Positions 13,135 through 28,645 of a DNA stretch of 33,571 nucleotides are shown one piece after another. Made by a program: the position numbers and the translations under genes. Within the stretch, counting starts at the first letter, position 1. Each line of letters starts with the position of its first letter. The notes under the pieces were generated by a model. That model worked only from the letters and a program-made list of their open reading frames with translations. It was not told the DNA's origin and made no database searches. This DNA is from Rhodobacter sp. (lineage in GTDB: Bacteria; Pseudomonadota; Alphaproteobacteria; Rhodobacterales; Rhodobacteraceae): positions 1-33,571 of the forward strand of contig PNJK01000039.1 of NCBI GenBank assembly GCA_013821825.1, in the 5' to 3' direction.

Positions 13135-14760
13135 TCAGTCGATCGTCAGCACCGCAGTCAACGGCGCAATCGCCACGGTCGCAGCCCGGCCTTCCACTGT
13201 CCATTCCAGCAGTGTGGCGACCGTACCCTCCGAGGCGGTTCCGGCCAGCGTCACGCGCCCGTCCTGACCCGCCTTGAACACGGCACGGTCCAGGATCCGG
13301 CGGATCGAGGCACCGTCATCCCCGGCCGAGACCAGATCCCGGAAAACCACAGCCGAGGCGATGTCTTCGCGTCTGGCTACCTGATCGGCGGCGTTCAACC
13401 CCTGATCCCAGGTCAGCAACCCCCGCCCCTGTGCACCGACGACCGGCACGACCATGCTTGCGAGCGGGCGGTTGTTCTGGAACAGCGCCTCTGACAGGTC
13501 CATCACGGCAACCGCCTCGGGCAGGCTCTGTGCCATCGACTCGAACGCGACCTCGAGGTCTGATGCCTGCGCGCCAGCCGGGAGGCCGGTGGCCAGCATC
13601 ACCACCTCTTTGCCGCCGGCACGGTAGATCGCGGCGCGTTCGGGCGTGGCAGGGTCCAGCGGGTCCAGCGCAAAGCTGACCGGGAAGGGCAGGGCGGCAA
13701 GGGTCTCGCGGTTGAGATCGGCCGTGCCGGGGTCGATCAGCACGATTGCCATAACCGGCTTTGCGTCCGGGTTCTCGAAAATCGCGGCAAACTGAGCGAT
13801 CGGACGGTCGTCGGCTGGCGCGGCTTCTGCTTCGGCTCCGGGAATCTCGGCGCCTTCCGCAGGGGCCGGGGCGTCACCGATCCGGGGCAAACGCCCGACG
13901 ATCACGCCTTCGGTCTTGTCGCCAAGGCCGGGGGCGGGCTTGAACGTCTGGCCATCTTCGGCCTCGGGCGTCACTGCGACTTCCGGCTCCGGGGTGGTCT
14001 CGGCTGCCTCAGGCTGGGGCACAGGCTCGGCCTCCGGCTCCGGGGCCGGCTGGACATCGGCAACCGGAGGCTCCGGTTCAGGTGCAGGCACTGGCTCCGG
14101 CACTGGCTCCGGCACTGGCTCTGGCACTGGCTCCGGCTCCGGGCTCGGTTCTGGTGCTGGCTCCGGGGTCGGCTCAGGTGCCTCGGCGGGTTGGGGTTCT
14201 GCGACTTCGGGCTTTGGCGCCGGGGGAGGGCTTTCCGTCGCGGCCCCGTCCAGCGCGGCAAGGACGGCATCGGCGTCCAGCTCGGGCAAGGGCGCCGGTG
14301 GGGTCGGCACGGACGGCAGCGGCACGTCTAGGGGCGGTGCGGGCGAGGTCACGCTGATCGGCGGGGCTTCTGGCTGTAGGGCGGGCTCAACTGCGGGTGT
14401 CGGTTTGGCAGCAGGGGCTTCGGGTTCAGGGGTCAACTCGACCGCGGCAGAGGCCTCGGGCGCGGGTCCGCCGTCTGCAGCCTCCGTCGCAGGTTCGGAC
14501 GGGGCCTCGGCAACCGTCTCAGGCTGGGGTTGTTCCGCGTCGTCGGGTTCGACCACGGGCTCAGTCACGGGCTCAGCAACGGGTTCGGCCTCGGGCGCAA
14601 CAGGTTCAACCGCTGCGGGTGCAGCTATTGGGTCCTGCTCTACCACCGGAGAATTTGCCGTGTCCAGGGTCCGCAAGGGGACCATGGCGGACCAAAGCAC
14701 CAGACCGCCCGTGACCAATACTCCGCCAGAGAGCATGCCTAAAAGGAACTTGCCGACCAC
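13135..14760 (-). CDS. Divergent polysaccharide deacetylase (YibQ/DUF610-like) with Pro/Glu-rich linker
   Basis: Predicted envelope protein of 541 residues. A hydrophobic N-terminal anchor (about 3-27) is followed by some 260 residues dominated by Pro, Glu, Ala and Val, with perfect PEPV repeats near 215-235. A folded C-terminal domain (about 315-541) starts with [14 protein letters not shown]. The block [33 protein letters not shown] resembles YibQ-type divergent deacetylases, in which the NodB zinc motifs are altered. Translation starts at a GTG (14758-14760) five bases after GGAGG. It is convergent with trpE. I recall a trpE(yibQ)trpGDC order in Rhodobacter sphaeroides, so the neighbourhood is conserved although trpGDC is not seen here. 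The linker could span the peptidoglycan layer. Confidence 0.85.
14087..14134 (-). repeat. Four tandem 12-bp repeats coding PEPV
   Basis: Four direct copies of GGCACTGGCTCC (one with a C-to-T change in the last base) lie head to tail. On the coding (minus) strand each copy encodes Pro-Glu-Pro-Val in the linker of the YibQ-like protein. Since 12 is a multiple of 3, copy-number change would vary linker length without a frameshift. Confidence 0.9.
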
Positions 14761-15489
14761 CGCCGCCTCCGAGTTTGCGCCCTTTCCGGCTTGGCGGACC
14801 GGGGGGACACCCCAGAACCCCAGAACCGGCCTGGCAATCCTGGGCCCGGCGCTATTCTTCCAAGTCGCAGTACTATAGCGCGGGCCTCATGTGGCTGCAT
14901 CCCATTTTAACGGCTTCGTCAACAAGTTGCCGTTCCGTGGCCCGGTTGCAATGTGAAGGTTCCGCCGGCAGCGGCCATTCGCCAGGTAAGTTGACCCGAA
15001 TGGCGCGAGGAAAGGGGAGGCGTCGGGCCATGTGCCTTGACCGAACGCCTCACCGAACCCGTCGGCATGGCAAAGCGCTTGATCTGTCAGACGCAAACCT
15101 GCCTGGCCAATTGCGGGTCGTTCCCGGAGGGCGCAAACCCATCCGGTCCGCGCCCCCATACCCGTCCAGGATGCCCCCGCTTCTGGCAGCCCCGCATCAG
15201 CGTCGGCAGTTATTCGCCGAAAGCCGCCCCGGGGCAGTTTCCGCGACCCGGCATTTCGGTCTACCAATGATTGAATCCCGAAACGGTGCTGACTGTGGCG
15301 GATGACTATGGGGCGTTATCCGTGGTCGAGCCCAATTCAGCCACAGACTGAGCACGGAATTGCCGGATTCCCCACTCATCCTGAAAGCCGCGTCGAGATT
15401 TGGGCAAGAGGTATCGTGCAGCGATCCTCATTTCGCCCTTGCAGTTCACTGGTCCTCCGGCAGCGCCCCAGAATGAAAGAGGGACATCT
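14761..15489. other. 729-base gap without a convincing gene
   Basis: Open frames here (for example 14887-15267 on the minus strand) have no recognisable domain and no good ribosome-binding site. The stretch must hold the promoters of the yibQ-like gene (minus) and the lysozyme-like gene (plus). Two inverted repeats stand out. One is GGCCCG-G-CGCTAT (14843-14855) facing ATAGCGCGGGCC (14875-14886), with a TACTATAG-like -10 inside. The other is a nested pair at 15293-15346: CTGTGGC/GCCACAG outside CGGAT/ATCCG. I see no tRNA or known riboswitch. Confidence 0.6.
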
Positions 15490-16035
15490 ATGCAAACGCT
15501 TAACGCATTCCTTGTTGCCCTGCGGATGATGGAATCCGGCGGGGATTACCAGGCGGTGAATTCACTCAACTTCCTTGGCGCCTATCAGTTTGGCGAGGCG
15601 GCCCTGACCGACCTCGGCTATGTCCGCCTCGACAGTGATGCCTTGGACAACAACTACTCCGGCGGCTGGACGGGCAAGAATGGCATCGATTCGGCCAAGG
15701 AGTTCCTGGCCAGCAAGAAGGTGCAGGACAAGGCGGCAGAAGCCTGGGTCAAGCTGATGTGGCATTACATCGAATCCGAGAACATGGGGCGCTACGCCTA
15801 TTCGGAAGTGGGCGGCGTAGAGTTGACGCCAAGCGGGATGCTGGGTGCCACGCATCTGCTTGGGACCTATGCGCTGAAGGAGTTCATCCGGTCTGATGGA
15901 ACTGCCGACCTGCGCGATCCCTATGGAATGCCGCTGGTGAGCTATATCGACCGGCTGGCGGGTTACGACATACCCTTCGCACCAAAGCCGCGGCGGGTCG
16001 CTTCCGCAAGCGATGGGTCTGGCGACGACTCCTGA
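15490..16035 (+). CDS. Lysozyme/transglycosylase-like protein (stand-alone ESGG module)
   Basis: A 181-residue protein starting at the ATG at 15490 (GAGGGA upstream). The block RMMESGGDYQAVNSLNF then GAYQFGEAALTDLGY (12-43) looks like the catalytic-Glu region of lysozyme-fold peptidoglycan hydrolases (E15 in ESGG; GAYQF as the second conserved block). The whole first 140 residues, including GSWTGK-like GGWTGKNGIDS and SGMLGATHLLGTYALKEF, resemble a module I recall at the N-terminus of some RTX/hemolysin-type calcium-binding proteins. Here it stands alone, with no RTX repeats and no visible signal peptide, and with a Ser/Asp-rich tail. It is convergent with the glycan-synthase operon. Peptidoglycan cleavage is an inference from fold-level similarity. 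Confidence 0.7.
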   Translation: MQTLNAFLVALRMMESGGDYQAVNSLNFLGAYQFGEAALTDLGYVRLDSDALDNNYSGGWTGKNGIDSAKEFLASKKVQDKAAEAWVKLMWHYIESENMGRYAYSEVGGVELTPSGMLGATHLLGTYALKEFIRSDGTADLRDPYGMPLVSYIDRLAGYDIPFAPKPRRVASASDGSGDDS

Positions 16036-16122: not shown

Positions 16123-19100
16123 TCAGGCCTTCTTATCACTCGCCGCGCTTAGCTTGCTGCCGGTGCGGTCCAGCTTGTACCAGCCCGTCGGGTGACCGGC
16201 CAGCGCGCGGAAAAGTCCCCGGATCGCGGTCAGATAAAGCAGCTGCCGATAGCCGAAGCGCAGCACGGGGATCAACAGCAGTGTCTTCAGTTCGAAGCGG
16301 CGTTCGAACCAGAACGCGGTCAGGGTGCGCAGAACCTCGATCCCGGTCATGATGAAATAGCTGGTGAAAAGCAGGATCGGCAATTCCCCCCCCGGCAGCG
16401 CATCGCGAAGCGCAATGGTGTAGATCGCCGTCCCCAGAACCGTCACCAGCAAGAGATCGTCCAGGATCGCAAGCAGCAGCGAGACCGGCCCGAACCAGAT
16501 GGAGTCGATCACCGAAAACCCGACCGGCAGGCCAGAGGTGATCACACGGCGGTGCTTCCAGCTGACCTGAAGCATGCCCAGCTGCCAACGCAGCCGCTGC
16601 CGCAGGAAAGCGCGGATGGTGGCCGGGGCCTCGGTGATTGACCGCGCACGCTCCTCGAACTGGACACGATAGCCCGCGCGATGAACCGCCACCGTCAGAT
16701 CGGCATCCTCGGTAATCGTCTCGCCGGAAAAACTGCCACCTTCGCGCACCGCCTTGGTCCGCCAGGCCCCGGCGGCTCCCGGTACCACCAGAATGCCGTC
16801 GAAGAATTCATGCGCCCGCCGCAACACGTTCTGCGTGACCATGTATTCCTGATGCTGGAAGTCGCTAAGGATGTTGACGCGGTTTCCGACCTCGACCAGC
16901 CCGGCGACGGCACCGACGGATTCGTCCTTGAAGGGCTGGACCAGCCAGCGGATCGTGTCGGGCAGGAAGATTGAATCCGCGTCGGCGGCAACGAAGATCG
17001 GCGTGGTTATCGCAGACAGCGCGAAATTCTCGGCATGCCATTTGCCGGCATTCGTTTCTTGCAGGAAGTGTATACGCGGGTTTTCGGCAACCAGTCCACG
17101 GACGACCTCGGCCGTTCGGTCTGTCGATCCGTCGTCGACGATATAGACCTCGAAATCCGGATAATCCGACCGCAGAATCGAAGCGATGCAGGCCGCGATC
17201 ACCTTTTCTTCGTTGAAGGCAGGGATCACCACCGACACGGGCGGCGCAAAATCGGGGTCGATCGGGCCTTGCGGGCGCCGGATCAAGGATAGGCCAATGT
17301 ACAAGACCGAAAAGGCCGCCGAAACCACCAGCATGACGAAGAACAGCAGCGTCACGCCGTTCATGAAGAAACCGACCAGGGCGAAGGCCGGCCCGTCGCC
17401 GATCTGGCTGACCCGCGGGTCATTAACGGGCGGGGGCAGATCGCCGGACGGGGTGGCCAGCTCAGGCGCCACAAAGCGGAACCCGTCGTCGACCAGCCGC
17501 GTCATGAGGTCGGGCAGGTTGATCGCCACGTCCGCACTGGACTGGCGCAGGTCCAGCGTAATGACTTGTGTCTGCCTGGGGTCGCCTTCGCGAAGGATGC
17601 GGTCCACGAATTCGGTCGGGTCGACCGGGCCATAAGGCGCGTCAAAGGATGACCGCACCGAGATCAGCCCGCGCTGCAAAAGGTCAGTCTCTTCCCGAAA
17701 GGCATCCCGGCTGAAGTTCGGCGGCCCCGAACCGGGGCGCAACATGGCCAGAGCGGCTGGCTTGCCGAAGACACGGGACAGGTAAAGCTGCGCGGCATTG
17801 ATCTGCATCCGCGCCGCAACCAGTGATTCAGGCCGGTCAGGCAGCGGCGGCAGGATGCGCAGCCCCAGCACATGCCCGGCCTCGCTCAGCCTTCTTGCCG
17901 CGTCGTCATGCTCCAGAAGGGCCGACAGATCGACAAAGAAGACGGCCTTGGCCCCCCGCGCCGACAAGGCGGAGATTATTGCCTCGACGTCGCTGCCGTC
18001 GGGCAGTCCGTCAAAGGCCAGCATCACCCCGCCAGCCACACTGCCCCCGCGACGTTGGACCCGGTTGGGCAAGGGCAGCCGGTCGTAACCCTGCGCCACG
18101 ATCCGGGTACCGGTCGCGTCAAGCCGTAGCCAGCGCTGCGCCTTGACGTCGGGCTCGATAGCGCTTAGCGCCGGGCCGCCGGTTTCGGTCAGGACCTGGG
18201 ACGACAGATCGACCTCGTCTTGCAGGCGCAGGTGTGGCGGACGGTCTTGCGGGTCGGGTTGCAGTAGCGACCAGATTGCCGGATCCTCATACCCCAGCGG
18301 CCAGATCGCAATGCTTTGGTTCCGGTCCAGCGCGCCAAGCTGGTTGTGCAGCGAGGCCGCATCCAGAAGCCACAACTCGTTCACTTGCCGGTCGGCGTCC
18401 AGAAAGCGCAACCGCGTGGCGCCGGCGGTCGCGTCGAACACCGGCACTGCACCTGCACGCTCGGCGCGCGAGAGGGTTTCTCCATAGCTCAGCCGCAGGC
18501 TCCGGCCCTGTCCGGTTTGCCAGCTCAGGCCAAATCCGCCAAGCGCCACCACCAGTTTTGGTCCCGGGATCAGCGCCCGCATTTCAGCCATCGAAGTGGC
18601 AAACCAATCAGCCGGGGCAGGCGCCATCATCGGCGTGGAGCCTTCCTGGAAGCCCTTGACCACTGCGATATCCAGCAGAGCAACAAGTCCGGGGTCGCGC
18701 CAGAACCCGGCCTCGGGCCCGGCGATCAGGCAAAGCGCCAAGGGCGTTCTACCAGGGCTGGCGGTGGCGATCTTCAGCCGCGACAAGGCGGCGCGCAGCA
18801 CACCCGGGTTCAGATCGGGATGCGCATCAAGGTTCAGGCAAAGGCCGGGCCGCAACTGCGAGGCCAGAAAAGCCGCCATCTGGGTGACGAGCTTTTCCAG
18901 TGCGGGGCCCGGCGAAAGCAGGGCGGCAAGCTCGTCAGTCCGCGTGCTGGCCGTGATCCGCGCCACCAGCAAAGCCGATCCTCCCGGCATGGCAATGCTG
19001 TCGGCCAGCTCCTGCAGGGCCTCGTTGCGATTGGCCCAAAGCGGCACCACGGTTCCGTCCGGCGCGCCCAACAGGAAGGCATCGGCCAGAACCCGGTCCA

Positions 19101-19449
19101 GCTGGTCGCAGCGGCTGCGCAATCCCGTGAGCGCGGTGCTGTCCGCAGCAGACAGATAGCCAAGCACAAGGCGCTGTCGCTGCCAAAAGGCACTTTCGTC
19201 GCGGGCACAGGGCGCCGACTCGTTCGTCTGAAGTGTGATCAGGGCATCCAGAGGCCGTGGCCCGCCCGCCGGCAAAACAGCAATCTCGGCCGCCGCCGGG
19301 GGGTCAATCAGCAGTCGGCGGCCGAAGTCCCACAGCCAGACCGCAAGCACCACAGACAGAACCACCAGCATGGCCACCACAACCTTGCCCCGGATTCCGC
19401 TGCGGTCTTCGAAGACGTGATCCGGTTCTTCTTCTGGCGTCTGGTCCAA
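16123..19449 (-). CDS. Membrane GT2 polysaccharide synthase fused to GH18-like and NodB-like domains
   Basis: A three-part 1108-residue inner-membrane protein. A single transmembrane segment (about 22-42) leads to a GH18/YaaH-like domain (about 85-400) and a NodB deacetylase-like domain (about 472-665). Then come membrane segments (about 690-723), a processive GT2 domain (about 737-960) and four or so C-terminal helices. The GT2 part has all hallmarks: VDDGS (771-775), DAD (823-825), TED (913-915) and QRLRW (951-955), as in cellulose, PNAG and chitin synthases. The extra-cytoplasmic domains look inactive: GH18 DxDxE reads N-L-D-A-H (206-210), and the NodB sites read AFDG and GHVLGLR with the zinc histidines missing. 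The only available start is TTG at 19449, since a stop lies 10 codons upstream. It is the last gene of the five-gene cluster. Confidence 0.88.
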   Translation of the reverse strand: MDQTPEEEPDHVFEDRSGIRGKVVVAMLVVLSVVLAVWLWDFGRRLLIDPPAAAEIAVLPAGGPRPLDALITLQTNESAPCARDESAFWQRQRLVLGYLSAADSTALTGLRSRCDQLDRVLADAFLLGAPDGTVVPLWANRNEALQELADSIAMPGGSALLVARITASTRTDELAALLSPGPALEKLVTQMAAFLASQLRPGLCLNLDAHPDLNPGVLRAALSRLKIATASPGRTPLALCLIAGPEAGFWRDPGLVALLDIAVVKGFQEGSTPMMAPAPADWFATSMAEMRALIPGPKLVVALGGFGLSWQTGQGRSLRLSYGETLSRAERAGAVPVFDATAGATRLRFLDADRQVNELWLLDAASLHNQLGALDRNQSIAIWPLGYEDPAIWSLLQPDPQDRPPHLRLQDEVDLSSQVLTETGGPALSAIEPDVKAQRWLRLDATGTRIVAQGYDRLPLPNRVQRRGGSVAGGVMLAFDGLPDGSDVEAIISALSARGAKAVFFVDLSALLEHDDAARRLSEAGHVLGLRILPPLPDRPESLVAARMQINAAQLYLSRVFGKPAALAMLRPGSGPPNFSRDAFREETDLLQRGLISVRSSFDAPYGPVDPTEFVDRILREGDPRQTQVITLDLRQSSADVAINLPDLMTRLVDDGFRFVAPELATPSGDLPPPVNDPRVSQIGDGPAFALVGFFMNGVTLLFFVMLVVSAAFSVLYIGLSLIRRPQGPIDPDFAPPVSVVIPAFNEEKVIAACIASILRSDYPDFEVYIVDDGSTDRTAEVVRGLVAENPRIHFLQETNAGKWHAENFALSAITTPIFVAADADSIFLPDTIRWLVQPFKDESVGAVAGLVEVGNRVNILSDFQHQEYMVTQNVLRRAHEFFDGILVVPGAAGAWRTKAVREGGSFSGETITEDADLTVAVHRAGYRVQFEERARSITEAPATIRAFLRQRLRWQLGMLQVSWKHRRVITSGLPVGFSVIDSIWFGPVSLLLAILDDLLLVTVLGTAIYTIALRDALPGGELPILLFTSYFIMTGIEVLRTLTAFWFERRFELKTLLLIPVLRFGYRQLLYLTAIRGLFRALAGHPTGWYKLDRTGSKLSAASDKKA

Positions 19450-19601: not shown

Positions 19602-22127
19602 TCAGCGCAAGGTGTGGCCGATCGCTTCCAGGATCACTCCGTTGGTGTTCAGGTCCGAATATCCCGGCATCGCCTGCATCGTGCTGGCAAAGACGCCGAC
19701 CGAGAAGCCCAGTCCGTCGATCCGCGCCGTGTTGCGCATCAGGGTCAGCAAGCGGTCGGAATACGGGTGCGAACGGACGGTTGCCCAAAGATAGGCCGAT
19801 TTCGCGCTCAGAAGCTCGGCGCGGCTGCGGAACTCGGGGGTATCGTACTCAGCCGCCCCACCCAGTCCCCGCACGATCCAAGCCGCATCGCCCAGATAGC
19901 CGAAGCGCAGGCCCTGATAGGAGAACCACGGCGGGAAGTTCAGTGGTGCCTCAGAGGCAGATTTCAGCTGACCGGTCGTTTCAAGCCAGGTCAGCTGCGC
20001 GTCAAACAGCACATCGGCGATCAGGCCCGAGGCTGGATCGGGCCCAAGCTCGACGATTTCAAGCAGGGTCGGTTCGACGCCGACCTGGCCGATCCGCGCC
20101 ACATCGTAAAGCAACGCGATCTCGTCGTCGGTCGGGCTGCCCCCGACCAGTCCGGCATAGGAGGAAACCAGATCAAAGCCCCAGTCGGCCATGCCGCGCC
20201 GAATATAGGGGGTGCAGTGTGACAGCGTGGTGTCGATCCACTTGCCGCCGACATGGGTATGCGGCCGTCCCCCGGGAAGTGCTGCGGCAAGATCCCAACC
20301 AGCTACCACAGTCTCGGCCTCGGCCGCTTCAAGCAACCCCGCACTGACGGCAGAGCGCAGCGCGATCATGAACCGGCCAACGTCGCAGATGTCGAAGCCG
20401 GGGGTCACGATGGCATCGCTGTCGGTGCGGAACATCGCTGGCGGCAGTCGGTTGCCGTCGATTTCCGCAAGGGGCAGGTTGTCGATCAGCAGTCGGGCGC
20501 GCTCGCGGGCCTCTTTCGCCTCGATCAGGGACAACTGGCCTGCCACGCGAATACCGTGCAGTTGGCTGGCCAGATCCCACATCGTGGCTTCGCGGTTGAT
20601 TATTGTGGTCTTGCGAAGCTGGACCGTCCCGGCGCTGCGGCCGGTCCGTTCGTCGGTGAACCGGTCGATATACAGCCAGGCAAGCCGGGCATCGTCCAGC
20701 AGACGAACCCGTTCGTCCGCGTCCGGGGCCGGCGGAACCAACGGATCAGTAAGGCTGCGCCGCCGTACTGACCACAGCCGCGCCAGAACGGGTTCGGTCG
20801 ACACAAGATGTTCGGCCAGACCTGGCACGGTGTGGAAATAGGCCTGTCCGGACTGGGCGGCCCCCAGAAACCGGCGCAGAAGCTGTGCGCGCTGGACCGG
20901 CAAAAGCACGTCGGCGGCGCGAATGGCAATGACGTGGTCTTCCAGCGGCGACAGGTCCAGCACCGCATCCGGACCGCTGCCCGCAAGCCGGCGCAAGGTC
21001 AGCCGCAGGCGACCGTCCGGGCCGATGCCTTGCCGGGTCCACACCGCCTCTTCTGCCGCTACGTGAACCGGCACCGGCAGGGACAGCGCGTCGGGCTGGT
21101 CGTCTGTGTCGCGCTGGCAGTCGGCGGGGGGGGCGGCTTCGGCGGCATCTGCCGGAGGCAAGGCGCAGAAATGAACCGTTCCCGGCAACTCTCCGAACTG
21201 CTCAGCCTTTCCGGTCAGGGTCAGCGGCACGCCCTGACCTGCAAGATCGCGCACGAAGGCAAGAAGCGCTTCCTGTTCTTCCAAAGTGTCACCCGGTTCG
21301 ACCAGAAGCGCCACGTCAAGGGGGAGGCCATCCCCGATGAAAAGCCGCAATTGCGCCGGGGTGGCCATGACGATCCGCCCGTCAACCATCGCCTTCGCCA
21401 GATCCCGGGCAATGGTTTCCGAGCGGACAGCCAGATCTGCCGCCTTGTCCAGCGTCAGCCCGGCCAATGACAGCGACAGCAGGATGTCCCCGCCGTCGCC
21501 CAGCGCGACACTCAGCCTTTTCCCAAGATCGGGGGCGGCAAGACCAGCCCAGATGCCGCCGCTCATGACCAGCTCGCCACGTCCCGCTATCGTCCGTTGG
21601 ACCGGCCCGTCCCCGGCACGGAGGTGAATCCGGAAACCTGCGCCCCGAAAGGCCGTGTGGTCGATGTTCGGGTCCTCAACCCGGTCGATCAGGGTCACCA
21701 CCGGGAACGACCGGTCAGCGGCCGGACCCCGACCGAAGGCCCGCGCGACTGCATCGCGCAACTCGGCGGCGCGGCGGAGCTGGAAGTAACGCTCGGTTCG
21801 GGGCAGCTTGCCGATCGGCAGGGCCAGTTCGAACAATCCCGGATCGCCCAATGCCAACCTCGCCAGAAGGTCAAGAAGCGGCCGCCCGCCGACGTCAGGC
21901 GCCGTCAGGGCGGCAAGGTCGGCCACGCAACACAGCGGCAGGCCCGATGACAGGAAGGGCGCCACGATTTGTTCGAGCACCCGGTAATCAAGGTCCGGGC
22001 CAACCCCGTCAAGCAAGAGCGACACCTGTGCAGCGCGGCTCTGTCCGTGCAAGCCCGCAGGCAATGCCATCAAGGGAAGCATGGTGGCCCCGCCGCGCAG
22101 GACGGTCCGGCGTGTCAGGCGGATCAT
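19602..22127 (-). CDS. DUF3131 protein with deacetylase-like N-terminal region
   Basis: An exported 841-residue protein. The N-terminus has a twin-arginine-like signal (TRRTVLRGG, then a hydrophobic stretch ending near AGLHG at 27). Residues about 33-315 look like a divergent polysaccharide-deacetylase/TIM-barrel region (VSLLLDGVGPDLDY, SGLPLCCVADLAAL) without the zinc motif. Residues about 475-840 match the DUF3131 type: DDARLAWLYIDRFTDERTGR, then TTIINREATMWDLASQLHGI and FRTDSDAIVTPGFDICDVGRF. DUF3131 belongs with (alpha/alpha)6-type glucan-acting enzymes, so glycan trimming or binding in the periplasm is likely. AGGGTGG precedes the ATG at 22127. It sits between a deacetylase gene (88 bases) and the GT2 fusion (152 bases). 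Confidence 0.82.
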   Translation of the reverse strand: MIRLTRRTVLRGGATMLPLMALPAGLHGQSRAAQVSLLLDGVGPDLDYRVLEQIVAPFLSSGLPLCCVADLAALTAPDVGGRPLLDLLARLALGDPGLFELALPIGKLPRTERYFQLRRAAELRDAVARAFGRGPAADRSFPVVTLIDRVEDPNIDHTAFRGAGFRIHLRAGDGPVQRTIAGRGELVMSGGIWAGLAAPDLGKRLSVALGDGGDILLSLSLAGLTLDKAADLAVRSETIARDLAKAMVDGRIVMATPAQLRLFIGDGLPLDVALLVEPGDTLEEQEALLAFVRDLAGQGVPLTLTGKAEQFGELPGTVHFCALPPADAAEAAPPADCQRDTDDQPDALSLPVPVHVAAEEAVWTRQGIGPDGRLRLTLRRLAGSGPDAVLDLSPLEDHVIAIRAADVLLPVQRAQLLRRFLGAAQSGQAYFHTVPGLAEHLVSTEPVLARLWSVRRRSLTDPLVPPAPDADERVRLLDDARLAWLYIDRFTDERTGRSAGTVQLRKTTIINREATMWDLASQLHGIRVAGQLSLIEAKEARERARLLIDNLPLAEIDGNRLPPAMFRTDSDAIVTPGFDICDVGRFMIALRSAVSAGLLEAAEAETVVAGWDLAAALPGGRPHTHVGGKWIDTTLSHCTPYIRRGMADWGFDLVSSYAGLVGGSPTDDEIALLYDVARIGQVGVEPTLLEIVELGPDPASGLIADVLFDAQLTWLETTGQLKSASEAPLNFPPWFSYQGLRFGYLGDAAWIVRGLGGAAEYDTPEFRSRAELLSAKSAYLWATVRSHPYSDRLLTLMRNTARIDGLGFSVGVFASTMQAMPGYSDLNTNGVILEAIGHTLR

Positions 22128-22215: not shown

Positions 22216-22986
22216 TCATTGGGCCGCCTCGATCATTCGTGCCGCGTCGCGCACAGTCGCCACCTTGATCAGGCCGCGGCGGTCCAGAAAGGCGGCGCAA
22301 GAGAATATCTCGTCGACCATGCGGGCCGAAACCTCGTAATCGCCAGGCGCGCTTTCAGTGATTCCGTGAAACAACAGCACAAGCCAGGTGCCATCCCGCG
22401 CGCTGGCCACCATCTCGCCGCAGACCTCGGCGGCGGTCATGGTGTTGACCACCTCCAGCCGACCGATCTGGCGCGGGTCAAACATCGTGCGCGGATTGCG
22501 TCCGCCGTGCCCCCTCCAGGACAGATGGAACCGATACTGCTCCATGATCCGATCAAGCGTCGCATCCGAAATGGCGCCAAATGGCGAGGAGAACGACTCC
22601 GGCGCCACCCCGATCTGGGCGGTGATGTCGGAAAAGGAGCCCGATACCTCGGCCAGAAGCTCGGCAGGGCCAAGGTCTGGCAGACGCACATGGCTTTGCC
22701 CATGCGCACCGATTTCCCAGCCCGCAGCAAGGAATGCGCGCACTTCGTCCCAGGTCATCGTCCAGGCATCCGGGGCCGGGGTATCCCCGATCAGCCCGGT
22801 CGGCACGAACAGGGTGCCGACAAGGCCATGCGCCTTGGCCAGCCGCAAACCATGGTCGAACTGCGCCCGCGAGGCATCATCGAAGGTGATCGAGACCAGA
22901 CCTTTTCCGGGGTCCGCGACCGCAATGGAAGGCGACATGGCGGTCACCACCAGCGAGATCAGAAGCTTGCCCAGACGCCCGATCAT
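22216..22986 (-). CDS. Polysaccharide deacetylase, NodB (CE4) type
   Basis: An exported 256-residue zinc-type esterase that removes N- or O-acetyl groups from a glycan. Residues 1-24 are a signal peptide (IAVADPG after it). The NodB motifs are intact: SITFDDAS (33-39, D36 and D37) and GAHGQSH (93-99, zinc ligands H95 and H99). RPxF-type motif 3 is less clear (SFSSPFGAIS). The later VLLFHGI (about 176-182) supplies the last conserved histidine. Its ATG overlaps the stop of the sulfatase-GDPD gene (ATGA, 22983-22986), so the two proteins are made together. It is the best candidate for the true deacetylase of the cluster, as the copies fused to the synthase look inactive. Confidence 0.9.
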   Translation of the reverse strand: MIGRLGKLLISLVVTAMSPSIAVADPGKGLVSITFDDASRAQFDHGLRLAKAHGLVGTLFVPTGLIGDTPAPDAWTMTWDEVRAFLAAGWEIGAHGQSHVRLPDLGPAELLAEVSGSFSDITAQIGVAPESFSSPFGAISDATLDRIMEQYRFHLSWRGHGGRNPRTMFDPRQIGRLEVVNTMTAAEVCGEMVASARDGTWLVLLFHGITESAPGDYEVSARMVDEIFSCAAFLDRRGLIKVATVRDAARMIEAAQ

Positions 22987-25900
22987 GGTGCTACCTCGAC
23001 AAAGATCGTCTCGCGCAAGCTGCTTTCCGGCGCGCCCGAAAATTCAAGTACACGACCATCGGCCCGGATCTGCCCAATGTAGGGCTGACGGAATTCGATC
23101 TTCGGGGCGGCGACAAGCGGGCTGCCGGCAAACAGCGGCGCAAGCGTCACCCCTTCGCAGAAGGCGCTGTCATGGACCACCACGGCAAGATCCTGTCCGC
23201 GAGCTGCCGCCTCCGTCAGCGCTTTCCGGAAAGGGGCCGGATCCGGCGCCTTGCCGGTGTCCAGCGCTGCGCAACCGTCGAAAGTTGTCAGCAGCTCCGG
23301 GGAACCGTCTTGGGCCAGCGCCACAAGGTTTACCCCCCGGGTCAGGCGAACCGCCGCGCCACCGTCCAGCGGGCGCAACGTTGACTCACCCGAGGCATGA
23401 CCGGACGAGATCACCTCGAACCGCGCGACCACCGGAGGAGGCAGGCTGTCGGTGAAGATCTCTGCGGCCCCGGCCTGCAAGGCTGCGTCGAACTCGGCCA
23501 GCGTGTTCAGGGTATGCACCCAGCTCAGCACCCCCGTCGCCTCGCGCGCCTGACGGGCCAGACCGGTGGACAGCCGTTCGGGCGGCATCGCAAGCCCCAG
23601 AAGATCCATCCGCTGCAGCCATGCCAAGACGTCCAAGGTTCCGCCACCATACTGATAAAGCGACCAGATCACATCACCATAGCCCATGTCGCGCACCGCG
23701 CGGTAGTCTTCTGGCTGATAGATCTGCGGCACAAAGCGGCTGCCCAGATCCGGATAGGTTTCGGCAATCTTGCGATAGGCCTCGACGGCACCCGCCTTCA
23801 GATCCAGCACGATCCGGACGCCGCCATTGGCACGCATCCAGCCTGCCAGGCTTGCCAGGGTGCAAGGCCTGAACCCGGCCTTTGCTGCTGTCCGGTCCTG
23901 GACTTCGGCCAGGCTCAGGGGATTGGCGGGCAGCACCCCGTCAAGGGCCAGAAAGGGCTGATCCCAGTCATGCAGGCAGACCAGTTCCCGATCCGACGTC
24001 CAGGTCAGGTCGATCTCGATCAGGTCGAAGGCGTCGGCATTGGCGTTCAGGGCTTCCAGCGAATTGGTGTAAGTCCGCCCGTCCAGCGCACCCCCCGAAT
24101 GAGCGATCCGCGGCAGGCTGGACAGAAGGCGTTGCTGGTCCTGCTGCACCGGGCGCATGAAGTTCTGCAGGTCCAGTCCCAGTGCTGTCTGGCGCGCACC
24201 GACGAATTCCTTGGTCTCGCCGTTGCCCGCGATCAGGGCGATATAGGGCTGCTCGTACCAAAGGTCGCGCCATTTCGTCAGGCCGGTGCCTTCGAACAGC
24301 GGCTCCAGACCCGGCTCCACCTCGTAACAGACTACGCTGTTGTGGGCGACGATTGCAAAGGCCCCGAACACCCCGGCATTGGCATCGATCGCGGCCTGAA
24401 ATCCGGTTTCCAGCGGCACCCCATCGGACTGACGCCCGCCATAGCCGCAGGTGTCGACATGACCGATCTTGATCGGCGCCTCATTCGGGCTGAGGCCCAG
24501 CAGCGTCAGACCCCGCATCAGTTTGACACGTTCACCAGTTGCCAGGTTCAGCGCCCAGGAATCGCCGGTCGAGTATCCAGCCGAGCGGATGGCAACTTCG
24601 CCGGTCAGCCCGTTTGGCGGCGTGTAATCGATGACATTGGCCGTGGCAAAGCGGCGCCGGCGCTTGCGGTCGGTCAGCAGGGCGTCGTGGAAAGCCAACT
24701 GGTCCGGTCCGCGCGCAAAAGCCTCTCCAAGTGCCTCTGCCTCCACGGGAATTCCGCCAAACAGTGGAATCTGGCGCAGGTCCGGGCTGGCCAGGGTGCC
24801 GGCCAATGCGCAAAGCTCTGCCGCTTCCGGCGGGGGGGCTGCGGCGAAGACCGCCGTCTTTCGGCAGGCATCCATCCAGACAAAGCGCTGGTCATCCGGC
24901 AGGCTGGCGACCAGTTCGGTCAGGGTGATGCCGCCGGCCAGGTCAAAGTCGATTGCAGTTACCTCCAGCGCCGCGTTCAGGCGAAGCAGCGCCGGCGGCT
25001 TCAGCCTGCGCCGTCCCAGAATCACCTCTCCTGCCTCCGGATCGGAGATGATACCGTCGGCAAGCTGCGGAAAGGCCCAGAGCGTTGCAAGATATCCGCG
25101 GCTGTCGCCGATCAGTTCCTCCAGTCCCGGCGCGCCGCCGCGCAGGGTGGGCGCGTTGGCCAAGAGGTCGCGGCCAAAGCCCAAGGCCGGGGTCGGGGCC
25201 CCGATCAGGCCCAGCAGCATCGGCCCGATGTCCAGCGTCGTCCCCGGTTTTGGAATTGTCGCGGGCGGCAGGTCCGGGGCGAAGACCATCAACAAGTTGC
25301 TCCGGTCGCCTGCCTCAAGCCGGTCTTGCGCAAGGTTGGGCATCGCCAGATGGTCCGAGGCGACAATCAGCACCGTGTCCTTGAAGGCAGGGCTTTCAAT
25401 CACATAGCGGATGAACTCCGCCGCCAGCCGGTCGGCGCAATGGACCGCGTTAAGGAACTCGTTCTCGCCGGTGGAATAGGGCTGGTCGGCGCAGGACCGG
25501 GACGTAAAGCCGAAGGGGTGGTGCGTGTCCAGCGTCAGGAGGACCAGACCGAACGGCGCATCCGCCCCGGCAAGGGCGTCAAAGCGGCGGGTGGCTTCGG
25601 CGTAGAGACTGTCGTCGAAAAGACCCCAGTCGTTCACATAGTCCGGATCGTCCAGCAGTGGCTGCAACTCGGCCCGGCCAACGACCCGGTCAAAGCCGTG
25701 GCTGTCGTAGAAGGCGCCCTTGCCGGCAAAGGCCAGATCCGCGCCGCCCAGATAGGTCAGATCGAAGCCCTGCGGATCAAGAAGGTCCCCAATACAGGTG
25801 GCCCCGGGCAGAAACGCATCCAACCCCGCGCCTGACCCGATCAGCGGCATGCCGCATTGGCTGGCCACCATCCCGGCGATGGTCCAGCCGCTGCCGGAAA

Positions 25901-26525
25901 CCTCGGAAATGTCGGTGAAGCTGATCGCCCGCGCCTCAAGCGCGCTCAGGTTTGGCATCAGGCCCGGGAAACGCGCCTCGTCCAGATAGCTGCGCTCGAC
26001 GGACTCCAGATACAGCAGGACAAAGTTGCGCGGCGCGTCGGGGAACTCCAGCCGTTCGACCGGCACGAAGTGTGGCGGTGGCGGGCCGGACATCCGGGTG
26101 CCGGTCAGGCGGGCATTGGCGGCAAGCTGCGCAAGGTCGCCCGCCCCGGGGTTGAACCAGATGGCCCCCGCCATCAGCGCCAGACCCGCAAGAAGCCTTG
26201 CAACTGAGGGGCTCTTGGGATCGACCGCCCGAAGCAGACGGAAGCTGACCGTCGCCACGACCAGACTGGCAACGACCAATGCCGCAGCAGCCGTCAAAGT
26301 CCCGGCGAATGCCCCAAGACCCGCGCCATCGAACCCGACCCTCAGGTGATAGAGCACCGAAGCATCGATGCCCGACCCGGTCAGCCGGTTGATCGTCGCA
26401 TAGGCCACCAGCAGCAGAAGCTGGGTCAGAACCACCGCTGACACCGCTCTTGCGGCCCATTTCGAGGTCAAGCTGCGCCGCCACATGCCGATCGCCCCGG
26501 CAAGAAGTGCCAGGCTAGTCCACAT
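22983..26525 (-). CDS. Phosphoglycerol-transferase-like sulfatase-fold protein fused to GDPD and two repeat modules
   Basis: A giant envelope protein. Numbering here is from a GTG at 26537; the ATG at 26525 is my preferred start (minus 4), and neither has a strong ribosome-binding site. Membrane segments occupy about 7-130. A sulfatase/LtaS/MdoB-fold domain (170-460) shows LLYLESVE (metal Glu178), SGSGWTIAGM (nucleophile candidate T219) and VASDH (394-396). A module at about 645-780 follows. A GDPD domain (805-1035) has AHSGG (H813), EID (841-843) and HD (856-857), close to the catalytic set of glycerophosphodiesterases. A second copy of the module lies at about 1040-1170. It probably transfers phosphoglycerol to a periplasmic glycan and hydrolyses glycerophosphodiesters. 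It is coupled to the deacetylase downstream by a 4-base overlap. Confidence 0.85.
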   Translation of the reverse strand: MWTSLALLAGAIGMWRRSLTSKWAARAVSAVVLTQLLLLVAYATINRLTGSGIDASVLYHLRVGFDGAGLGAFAGTLTAAAALVVASLVVATVSFRLLRAVDPKSPSVARLLAGLALMAGAIWFNPGAGDLAQLAANARLTGTRMSGPPPPHFVPVERLEFPDAPRNFVLLYLESVERSYLDEARFPGLMPNLSALEARAISFTDISEVSGSGWTIAGMVASQCGMPLIGSGAGLDAFLPGATCIGDLLDPQGFDLTYLGGADLAFAGKGAFYDSHGFDRVVGRAELQPLLDDPDYVNDWGLFDDSLYAEATRRFDALAGADAPFGLVLLTLDTHHPFGFTSRSCADQPYSTGENEFLNAVHCADRLAAEFIRYVIESPAFKDTVLIVASDHLAMPNLAQDRLEAGDRSNLLMVFAPDLPPATIPKPGTTLDIGPMLLGLIGAPTPALGFGRDLLANAPTLRGGAPGLEELIGDSRGYLATLWAFPQLADGIISDPEAGEVILGRRRLKPPALLRLNAALEVTAIDFDLAGGITLTELVASLPDDQRFVWMDACRKTAVFAAAPPPEAAELCALAGTLASPDLRQIPLFGGIPVEAEALGEAFARGPDQLAFHDALLTDRKRRRRFATANVIDYTPPNGLTGEVAIRSAGYSTGDSWALNLATGERVKLMRGLTLLGLSPNEAPIKIGHVDTCGYGGRQSDGVPLETGFQAAIDANAGVFGAFAIVAHNSVVCYEVEPGLEPLFEGTGLTKWRDLWYEQPYIALIAGNGETKEFVGARQTALGLDLQNFMRPVQQDQQRLLSSLPRIAHSGGALDGRTYTNSLEALNANADAFDLIEIDLTWTSDRELVCLHDWDQPFLALDGVLPANPLSLAEVQDRTAAKAGFRPCTLASLAGWMRANGGVRIVLDLKAGAVEAYRKIAETYPDLGSRFVPQIYQPEDYRAVRDMGYGDVIWSLYQYGGGTLDVLAWLQRMDLLGLAMPPERLSTGLARQAREATGVLSWVHTLNTLAEFDAALQAGAAEIFTDSLPPPVVARFEVISSGHASGESTLRPLDGGAAVRLTRGVNLVALAQDGSPELLTTFDGCAALDTGKAPDPAPFRKALTEAAARGQDLAVVVHDSAFCEGVTLAPLFAGSPLVAAPKIEFRQPYIGQIRADGRVLEFSGAPESSLRETIFVEVAP

Positions 26526-26605
26526 GGTCCGACCCACGGTCGCTGCGTGTTCTATGCCCCATGATCATCGCCCGGGCAGCACCCTCCAATCCGCTCGGGC
26601 AAGCA

Positions 26606-26676: not shown

Positions 26677-27492
26677 TCATCGTGGCGTGTCTGGCACCAC
26701 CCCTATGGCATCGCGCGCGCTCATCAGCCGGATGATCCCGGCATCGCGCAGCCGGTCGGCGCAGTCCAGGACACCCAGAAACTGATCGACCGAGTTTTCG
26801 TATTCATAGGTCGGGATATCGACCACCCGATGCCAGATATAGACCAGCCAATAGCCATCGCGCCCGGCGCGCTCCATCTCGGCGCAGATCTCATCGACGG
26901 ATTTCGTGTTCGCCACCTGCTCGCGGTTGATGCGGAAATGGTCGGTCCGGTCAAAAAGGTTGATCCCCTCGTTTCCCCAGCCCCGGAAATGCGCGTTGTA
27001 ATAGAAACGGGCGCGGTCCAGCACCCGCTCGTCATAATCGCCATTGGGCGAGGCGAAGGTTTCAGGATAGATCCCTGTGGCCCGAAGGATCTGCGCAGCG
27101 GGCACTCCAAGTTCCATCTCAAGCACTTCGTCACTGGCTTTGGACAGCATGTAGGCATGGGTGAAGCCATGCGCCCCGAACTCCCATCCGAACTGCTGCA
27201 AACTGCGGACATTCTCCCATGAGATGTCGCCAGGCGCGCCGGTGATCGGCTTGGTCTGGCCGAACATGGTGCCGGGAATGTCACGCCCGAAGAACTCTGG
27301 CATATACTTGGCGAAGAACTCCGAAGTGACATTATCGACAGTGAAGGTGACGATCCCCACCTCTGGTTCAGCCGATGCCGGGACGGCGAACATCGTCGCC
27401 AGCATGGCTTTCCAGATCGGACCACGACAAGCGCGCCGACGCCCGGCACTCGACCCGCCTTTACGTTGATCCGGAAGATTATCCTTGCGCAT
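26677..27492 (-). CDS. Polysaccharide deacetylase, NodB-like with altered first motif
   Basis: First gene of the cluster, about 271 residues. A basic N-terminus with a hydrophobic stretch (IWKAMLATMFAVPASAE, 26-42) suggests export. The zinc-histidine motif is intact: GAHGFTH (106-112, H108 and H112). The first motif reads TVDN (51-54) where its sister at 22216-22986 has TFDD, so the metal-ligand Asp is replaced by Asn while the base Asp is kept. SPNGDYDERVLDRA and the late YIWHRV (with its histidine) also match the sister, so the two are paralogues. Two adjacent ATGs exist; I chose 27492 because GGGAG is five bases before it (27495 would leave only two). It is followed by the sulfatase-GDPD gene after about 150 bases. 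Confidence 0.85.
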   Translation of the reverse strand: MRKDNLPDQRKGGSSAGRRRACRGPIWKAMLATMFAVPASAEPEVGIVTFTVDNVTSEFFAKYMPEFFGRDIPGTMFGQTKPITGAPGDISWENVRSLQQFGWEFGAHGFTHAYMLSKASDEVLEMELGVPAAQILRATGIYPETFASPNGDYDERVLDRARFYYNAHFRGWGNEGINLFDRTDHFRINREQVANTKSVDEICAEMERAGRDGYWLVYIWHRVVDIPTYEYENSVDQFLGVLDCADRLRDAGIIRLMSARDAIGVVPDTPR

Positions 27493-27607
27493 CATGGCTC
27501 CCTGCCGCGGATGATGTGCCACCACCCGTCCAGAATGCAACAAGCTTGGCCCATGTCGATGTGCGCGATTGACGCGGGCCGACACCGTTCAGCGGTTTGC
27601 CCGCCTC

Positions 27608-27646: not shown

Positions 27647-28645
27647 CTATCTTATGCGCAGCCCGTCGGCGTCGAAATACAGCTCCCGCGCCCGGTCGAG
27701 GTCCAGGAAGACCGCCGCTCCGGGGGTGAAATCCTGATGGCCGAACAGGCGTGCCGTGATTGTTCCCAGCCGTTCCGTCCGGATGATCAGGTTCGTCTCG
27801 CTGCCCAGGGTTTCGACGTGGTCCAATGTTCCGGCAATTGCCCCCGCCGTCAGGCTTACGGAGATATGTTCGGGACGGGTGCCGACATATCGGCCCGGCC
27901 TGCCAAGCGGACCAGAGTCGAGGAAGTTCATCTTTGGCGATCCGATGAAGCCTGCGACGAACATGTTGTCAGGGTCGTGATAGACATCCATCGGACGTCC
28001 CCACTGCTCGATCCGGCCCTTGTTCATCACGACGATATGGTCGGCCAGAGTCATCGCCTCGACCTGATCATGCGTGACATAGATCGTGGTGGTCCCAAGC
28101 CTGCGGTGCAGGTCGGCCATTTCGATCCGCATATGCACCCGCAGCGAAGCATCAAGGTTGGACAGCGGCTCGTCGAACAGAAACAGGCTTGGCTTCCGGA
28201 CAATCGCGCGTCCGATCGCCACCCGCTGACGCTCGCCGCCCGAAAGCTCTTGCGGTAGCCGCCGCAGCAAGGGTGACAAGGCAAGGATTTCGGCAACATG
28301 GCGCACTGCCTTATCGGTATCGCGGCGCGAAAGCCCTGCCTGCCGAAGCCCAATGCCAAGATTGCCCGCTACGGTCAGATGCGGATAAAGCGCGTAGCTT
28401 TGGAAGACCATCGCAATGTCACGCTCGACCGGGGGCAGGGCGGTCACATCCCGTCCCGCAAGCCGGATACTGCCGCTGTCGGGGTCAAGCAGCCCGGCGA
28501 TGATCCGCAGCAGGACCGACTTGCCGCAACCCGACGGCCCGACCAGTGCCCAGAACTCGCCCGATCCAATGGTCAGATCAAGTCCGTGAAGAACTTCCAG
28601 CCCGTCGAAGCTCTTGCGCAGAGCAGAGATTTCCAGTGATGCCAT
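27647..28645 (-). CDS. ABC transporter ATP-binding protein, UgpC/MalK type (orphan)
   Basis: ATPase subunit of a carbohydrate- or glycerophosphate-type importer, 332 residues. Walker A is GPSGCGKS (36-43), the Q-loop lies in VFQSYALYPHLTV (80-92), the signature is LSGGERQR (134-141), Walker B is LFLFDEPLSNLDA (154-166) and the switch histidine is H192. A C-terminal regulatory/TOBE region follows (GSPKMNFL, then VGTRPEHISV), typical of the MalK/UgpC group. No permease or binding-protein gene is in the window, so it is an orphan and may serve a transporter elsewhere. It lies about 155 bases upstream of the glycan cluster on the same strand. A damaged copy of its own first 42 codons lies directly upstream. 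Confidence 0.9.
   Translation of the reverse strand: MASLEISALRKSFDGLEVLHGLDLTIGSGEFWALVGPSGCGKSVLLRIIAGLLDPDSGSIRLAGRDVTALPPVERDIAMVFQSYALYPHLTVAGNLGIGLRQAGLSRRDTDKAVRHVAEILALSPLLRRLPQELSGGERQRVAIGRAIVRKPSLFLFDEPLSNLDASLRVHMRIEMADLHRRLGTTTIYVTHDQVEAMTLADHIVVMNKGRIEQWGRPMDVYHDPDNMFVAGFIGSPKMNFLDSGPLGRPGRYVGTRPEHISVSLTAGAIAGTLDHVETLGSETNLIIRTERLGTITARLFGHQDFTPGAAVFLDLDRARELYFDADGLRIR

Follow-up and report, generated by a model that had tools for sequence, protein, structure and literature searches.

A predicted Rhodobacter envelope protein joins an OpgB-like half, a GDPD-like domain, and two FAM3/POMGnT1-stem-like modules within a conserved gene cluster

One gene in the analyzed stretch of DNA (33,571 nucleotides of a Rhodobacter contig, hereafter the window) encodes a protein of 1180 amino acids (aa) in which an OpgB-like, sulfatase-fold half is followed by a module (module 1), a glycerophosphodiesterase (GDPD)-like domain, and a second copy of the module (module 2), the latter having the FAM3/POMGnT1-stem fold in its structure model. 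The fusion gene lies on the minus strand (22983 to 26525, counted from the ATG at 26525, within an open frame of 22983 to 26537), and its orthologues (L002 to L005 and L026) start with the residues MW at the same aligned position. The initial annotation had placed a single joined protein at these coordinates, and the open frame and domain matches agree with it. Full-length orthologues occur in 5 of the 100 other genomes searched, all of the same genus, with 63 to 67% identity over residues 1 to 1180; together with the window's own genome, they make up the set of six to which the counts of orthologues, carriers, and loci below refer.

The N-terminal 585 residues follow Escherichia coli OpgB: blastp aligns the two proteins at 31% identity over 590 columns (E 2e-78), spanning OpgB residues 8 to 585 of 763. 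A membrane-anchoring part (residues 1 to 160; 26046 to 26525, minus strand) shows two hydrophobic segments in its hydropathy (27 to 45 and 77 to 95), versus three in E. coli OpgB by the same rule. It leads into the sulfatase-fold, phosphoglycerol-transferase-like domain (residues 166 to 442; 25200 to 26030, minus strand; Pfam PF00884, E 2e-23), which has VP1736 (3lxq) and Listeria LtaS (4uoo) as solved relatives, and then into a second part in common with OpgB by blastp (residues 461 to 590; 24756 to 25145, minus strand). The Glu, Thr, and Asp-His of the OpgB active site are present in this fold as E174, T215, D391, and H392, invariant in all six orthologues; work on LtaS and OpgB assigns these residues as catalytic. 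Neither of the two NCBIfam equivalog models for OpgB is reached, the scores being 341.9 bits (cut-off 572) and 321.9 bits (cut-off 574). The best 50 of 739 Foldseek matches of the whole-chain model are alkaline-phosphatase-superfamily proteins, but the model is poor (pLDDT 52.1, pTM 0.33), too poor for the active-site geometry of either enzyme.

Module 1 (residues 640 to 790; 24156 to 24608, minus strand) and module 2 (residues 1030 to 1180; 22986 to 23438, minus strand) are copies of each other. They share 32.1% identity over 137 aa (E 1.8e-18), and hhalign joins them over 132 columns with a probability of 99.2%. The internal duplication that had been read from paired motifs therefore stands, with those motif pairs in alignment, and the two regions are homologous rather than unrelated folds.

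The loose resemblance to the FAM3/ILEI fold that the initial annotation had proposed proved right: module 2 was modelled with confidence (pLDDT 87.5, pTM 0.87; built from ten rows holding both modules of the window and four loci), and its model matches the stem of POMGnT1, a relative of FAM3/ILEI. Against the PDB, Foldseek returns three POMGnT1 stem structures (5ggl, 5ggj, and 5ggn; E 1.1e-5 to 1.1e-4, probability 1.00, TM 0.60 to 0.62) and TMEM2 (8c6i; E 2.4e-3, probability 1.00), after which the fifth match drops to a probability of 0.05. Among viral models (BFVD), an entry named interleukin-like EMT inducer protein ranks first (E 1.8e-6, TM 0.74) and a glycosyltransferase second. By this model, module 2 has the FAM3/POMGnT1-stem fold, and module 1 is predicted to share it through its homology to module 2. 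Phage tail-fibre connectors and proteins of giant viruses are also numerous among the BFVD matches, so that the fold seems widespread in viral proteins that deal with adhesion and glycans.

The corresponding link in sequence is weak. The Pfam model of ILEI (PF15711) matches nowhere in the 1180-aa protein; across the order, it matches in 2 of 390 genomes, both times below the cut-off (one of these host proteins resembles, by eye, a periplasmic binding protein), and across the phylum in 0 of 398 genomes, a zero that carries no weight because no control genome gave a match either. The module profile finds nothing in the PDB by sequence up to E 10. Compared with FAM3C/A/B, the combined-module profile scores at best 21.3 (probability 4.4%), above all of its 60 column shuffles (top 17.8); module 1 alone scores 12.1, module 2 alone 16.9, and a GDPD control 14.5, the shuffles applying to the combined profile only.

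What the modules might do is suggested by their solved relatives. In PMC9802357, the POMGnT1 stem is described as binding beta-linked GlcNAc through R129, D179, and R207, and a copy in the worm protein FAMP-1 without the last two of these three residues as not binding. In the profile alignment with FAM3C, R1063, D1119, and R1146 of module 2 stand in register with Arg, Asp, and Arg, and by sequence register this set is kept in six of six orthologues; the Arg-Asp and Asp-Arg spacings are 54 to 56 and 26 to 27, versus 50 and 28 in POMGnT1 (a comparison of sequence register). Module 1 reads R/N/E in five orthologues and R/D/E in the sixth, so that the full set occurs in none. Of the two relatives with a single module, P0003 has R/D/R and P0002 has R/S/E.

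As to the earlier proposal that the modules bind the polymer, a role in glycan binding is plausible, by analogy, given that the nearest solved fold is reported to bind beta-GlcNAc and that module 2 keeps the matching residues throughout, and module 2 appears to be the better GlcNAc-binding candidate of the two. Module 1 has the poorer residue set yet is the more conserved (mean pairwise identity between orthologues of 77.5%, versus 59.1% for module 2), and its role may thus not be GlcNAc binding; the same conservation counts against a simple reading of module 1 as dead.

Between the modules, the GDPD-like domain (residues 800 to 1030; 23436 to 24128, minus strand) barely reaches its family's Pfam gathering score: PF03009 matches residues 820 to 878 with 23.8 bits, the cut-off being 23.6. 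H809, E837, D839, H852, D908, and K910 are invariant in all six orthologues and include two His and acidic metal ligands (H809, H852, E837, D839, and D908), the third metal ligand being, by alignment, Asp instead of Glu. The sulfatase-fold and GDPD motif residues that had been quoted at the outset are all present in the 1180-aa translation. Missing is the equivalent of Arg44 of GlpQ, described in PMC7086022 as a phosphate-binding residue: position 810 is Ser in two and Ala in four of the six orthologues. Mean orthologue identity is 67.9% for this domain, versus 78.2% for the sulfatase-like domain. Homology to GDPD enzymes is weak by sequence, and no GDPD, a family with a TIM-barrel fold, is found among the best 50 of 739 matches of the (poor) whole-chain model. 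A search of the class returned matches at 9 places in 8 of 308 genomes beyond the window's own, of which the five best lack the GlpQ Arg (one also having Gln for His), whereas it is present at the four weakest; since the Arg is missing in the five best, the domain seems to be part of a separate GDPD subgroup.

The missing Arg bears on the substrate. As given in PMC7086022, GlpQ cuts sn-glycerol-3-phosphoryl ends, and phosphatidylglycerol donates sn-glycerol-1-phosphate. Erasing phosphoglycerol added by an OpgB-type enzyme would need another specificity, because sn-glycerol-1-phosphoryl ends are, on that account, not cut by GlpQ; a different active site makes such a specificity possible. The earlier suggestion that the domain removes or recycles phosphoglycerol added by the OpgB half finds no support so far, with the GlpQ Arg44 absent and the stereochemistry of the donor one that GlpQ is reported not to cut.

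The complete architecture appears confined to part of one genus. The GDPD profile matches 7 of 32 genomes in a search of the genus: the six carriers and, at half length, a genome without the fusion (G031), where a 179-residue open reading frame (L027, 10066 to 10603) matches the GDPD domain over its second half only (32%). The module profile matches 3 of 248 genomes in the family, the window's included, and 1 of 385 in the class, the window's own; as 17 (family) and 10 (class) candidates were scored per genome, distant copies of the module may have escaped these searches. The other two members of the family, in two other genera, carry OpgB plus one module (P0002, of 836 aa, stops after its module, and P0003 runs to the end of its contig), which suggests that OpgB plus one module is probably the older form, to which the GDPD-like domain and module 2 were added in this genus. 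Among viral contigs, four stretches matched a pattern in a search with the module profile, and none is a relative. Plasmid searches gave 43 records for the whole protein (none over 80% of the query, and the best 20 of the 43 matching the OpgB part), 2 for the GDPD domain, and none for module 2. Searches of the open-access literature for this kind of fusion, or for bacterial FAM3-like modules, gave no paper whose title or abstract opening shows such a fusion.

The fusion gene sits in a conserved cluster, with the same gene order at all six loci: a CE4-type gene, the fusion gene, and then genes for a CE4 polysaccharide deacetylase, a DUF3131 protein, and a GT2 glycosyltransferase, all on the minus strand in the window. 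The downstream CE4 gene (22216 to 22986; PF01522, E 1.7e-17; HfsH as best NCBIfam match, below the equivalog cut-off) begins, in the window, with an ATG in a 4-base overlap with the stop of the fusion gene. It is followed by the DUF3131 gene (19602 to 22127; PF11329, E 1.9e-39) and the gene for a PgaC-like GT2 protein of 1108 aa (16123 to 19449; identified by Pfam and NCBIfam), which carries a deacetylase-type domain in midchain (475 to 573), has no Pfam model at E ≤ 0.01 over its ~470 N-terminal residues, and best matches PgaC_IcaA in NCBIfam (E 9.7e-51), missing the cut-off with 173 of 422.3 bits. The CE4-type gene upstream (26677 to 27585; PF01522, E 1.7e-11) is present at all loci and in two copies in L002, L005, and L026; the true start of its product is probably farther downstream, since the alignments with orthologues begin only at about residues 43 to 77. 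This protein has TVDN where the neighboring CE4 protein reads TFDD, a metal-ligand motif of CE4 enzymes, and one of its metal ligands may thus be changed. Beyond it lies a lone ABC-transporter ATPase of the UgpC/MalK type (27647 to 28645, minus strand; 404.7 bits against the UgpC model, with a cut-off of 432), present at five of six loci. We considered and rejected a role for this UgpC-like ATPase in importing released glycerol phosphate: upstream genes vary between loci, and the ATPase is absent from L003. Beside the GT2 gene, a 211-aa protein on the plus strand (15400 to 16035) is kept at all six loci and matches no family above a cut-off, and a divergent polysaccharide deacetylase gene contains tandem repeats of 6, 12, and 24 bases (14069 to 14181).

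From its sequence matches, the cluster looks like a GlcNAc-polymer synthesis system, and its DUF3131 protein occurs in 13 of 101 genomes searched. At 66 to 69% identity it is found in exactly the five other carriers of the fusion, and at 32 to 35% in three genomes of the same genus without the fusion; a further four genomes give partial matches. The GT2 gene adjoins the DUF3131 gene in those three genomes as well, and the 20 kb covered there hold nothing that matches OpgB, the module, or the GDPD domain. In L057, the pair is close to the trpE, surA, and aminotransferase genes that the window also has. It thus seems that the fusion joined a polymer system already in place.

If the OpgB half is a transferase, its acceptor could be an osmoregulated periplasmic glucan (OPG), as in E. 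coli, with the other domains as additions. We consider this quite improbable. The reading draws on the resemblance of the N-terminal half to OpgB and on the presence of opgG in the window's genome, yet the OPG marker opgG (PF04349) occurs in just this one of the six carriers, versus two of seven genomes of the genus without the fusion, and the cyclic glucan synthase domain PF10091 in none of the six (a weak control, being found in 1 of 14 control genomes). Unless some other glucan system was missed, an OPG cannot, on these counts, be the acceptor that all carriers share, and with opgG in so few of them, the polymer made by the cluster itself is the probable acceptor. The module does not appear to be tied to this polymer, given that no homologue of the cluster surrounds the genes for OpgB plus one module in the two other genera (20.0 kb covered for P0002 and 8.7 kb for P0003).

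Taken as a whole, the best explanation, to which we give about an even chance, centers on the GlcNAc-type polymer of the cluster. The protein would be an inner-membrane enzyme active on the periplasmic side, its OpgB-type half moving phosphoglycerol from phosphatidylglycerol to a sugar polymer, most likely the GlcNAc-type product of the PgaC-like GT2, DUF3131, and CE4 proteins and not an OPG. The two FAM3/POMGnT1-stem-like modules may hold or inspect the polymer by binding its sugars, and the GDPD-like domain between them would cut a phosphodiester, whether to trim the decoration or to hydrolyze some related glycerophosphodiester. A more specific version, which we regard as tentative and on the unlikely side, would combine writer, reader, and eraser on one chain: the OpgB half writes, the modules read the state of the sugar or its decoration, and the Arg-less GDPD domain removes sn-glycerol-1 phosphoglycerol, so that one protein sets the charge pattern of the polymer.

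Two further readings concern the GDPD-like domain. A real, if minor, possibility is that it acts on lipids or small molecules, clearing glycerophosphodiesters, lysophosphatidylglycerol among them, that arise close to the transferase, much as the Staphylococcus aureus GDPD LpgD is reported, in PMC10404611, to convert lysophosphatidylglycerol to lysophosphatidic acid. The domain could be such a general enzyme, being the sole PF03009 match (E ≤ 0.001) in the window's 97.9%-complete genome, but it sits between two folds of a glycan-binding type and within a polymer cluster. The OpgB reaction, moreover, leaves diacylglycerol rather than lysophosphatidylglycerol. It is improbable, in our estimate, that the GDPD-like domain, module 1, or both have lost their activity and are structural parts: the bare Pfam match, the Ser or Ala in place of the GlpQ Arg, and the Glu in module 1 where module 2 has Arg (six of six) would fit such a loss, but the six GDPD residues from H809 to K910 are invariant, and module 1 is conserved like the sulfatase-like domain (77.5% and 78.2%).

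Should the polymer-centered explanation be true, an enzyme of the bacterial envelope would carry, as an integral glycan module, a fold that is known chiefly from secreted proteins of animals and the stem of a glycosyltransferase, and also from phage tails. The protein would compactly unite opposing activities in a single chain and be a candidate enzyme for the cleavage of sn-glycerol-1-phosphate decorations, a task to which GlpQ is unsuited. It would also point to a phosphoglycerol-modified GlcNAc-type polymer, of which we found none in the open-access literature.

Set beside known systems, the protein resembles E. coli OpgB/MdoB (phosphoglycerol transferase I) in having all four active-site residues in place; unlike OpgB, it lacks the last ~180 residues, with module 1, the GDPD-like domain, and module 2 in their stead, scores below the equivalog cut-offs, and is accompanied by no OPG marker in five of six carriers. 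The GDPD-like domain keeps the two His, Glu, and Asp of the GlpQ/GDPD metal site, with D908 at the E/D-x-K position, but unlike GlpQ has no Arg after the first His. Module 2 shares its fold with the FAM3/ILEI (PANDER-like) proteins (the POMGnT1 stem, TMEM2, and FAM3), from which the window protein differs in giving no PF15711 match, in carrying two copies within a bacterial envelope enzyme, and in having two invariant Cys in each module; relative to the Arg/Asp/Arg set of the POMGnT1 type, module 1 has lost two of three residues in five orthologues and one in the sixth. A comparable non-animal setting is provided by CBM_1 of the Streptococcus phage TP-778L Tal protein, for which PMC9437275 gives a POMGnT1-stem-like fold with the Arg and Asp kept (residues 1119 and 1174), a spacing of 55 versus the 54 to 56 of module 2, although that protein is a phage tail adhesin and not an envelope enzyme. 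The cluster, finally, is like the PgaC/IcaA and HfsH polymer systems in the best matches of its GT2 and CE4 proteins and unlike them in the fusion of GT2 to a deacetylase-type domain and in the addition of a DUF3131 protein and a phosphoglycerol-transferase-like protein, with none of these proteins reaching its equivalog cut-off.
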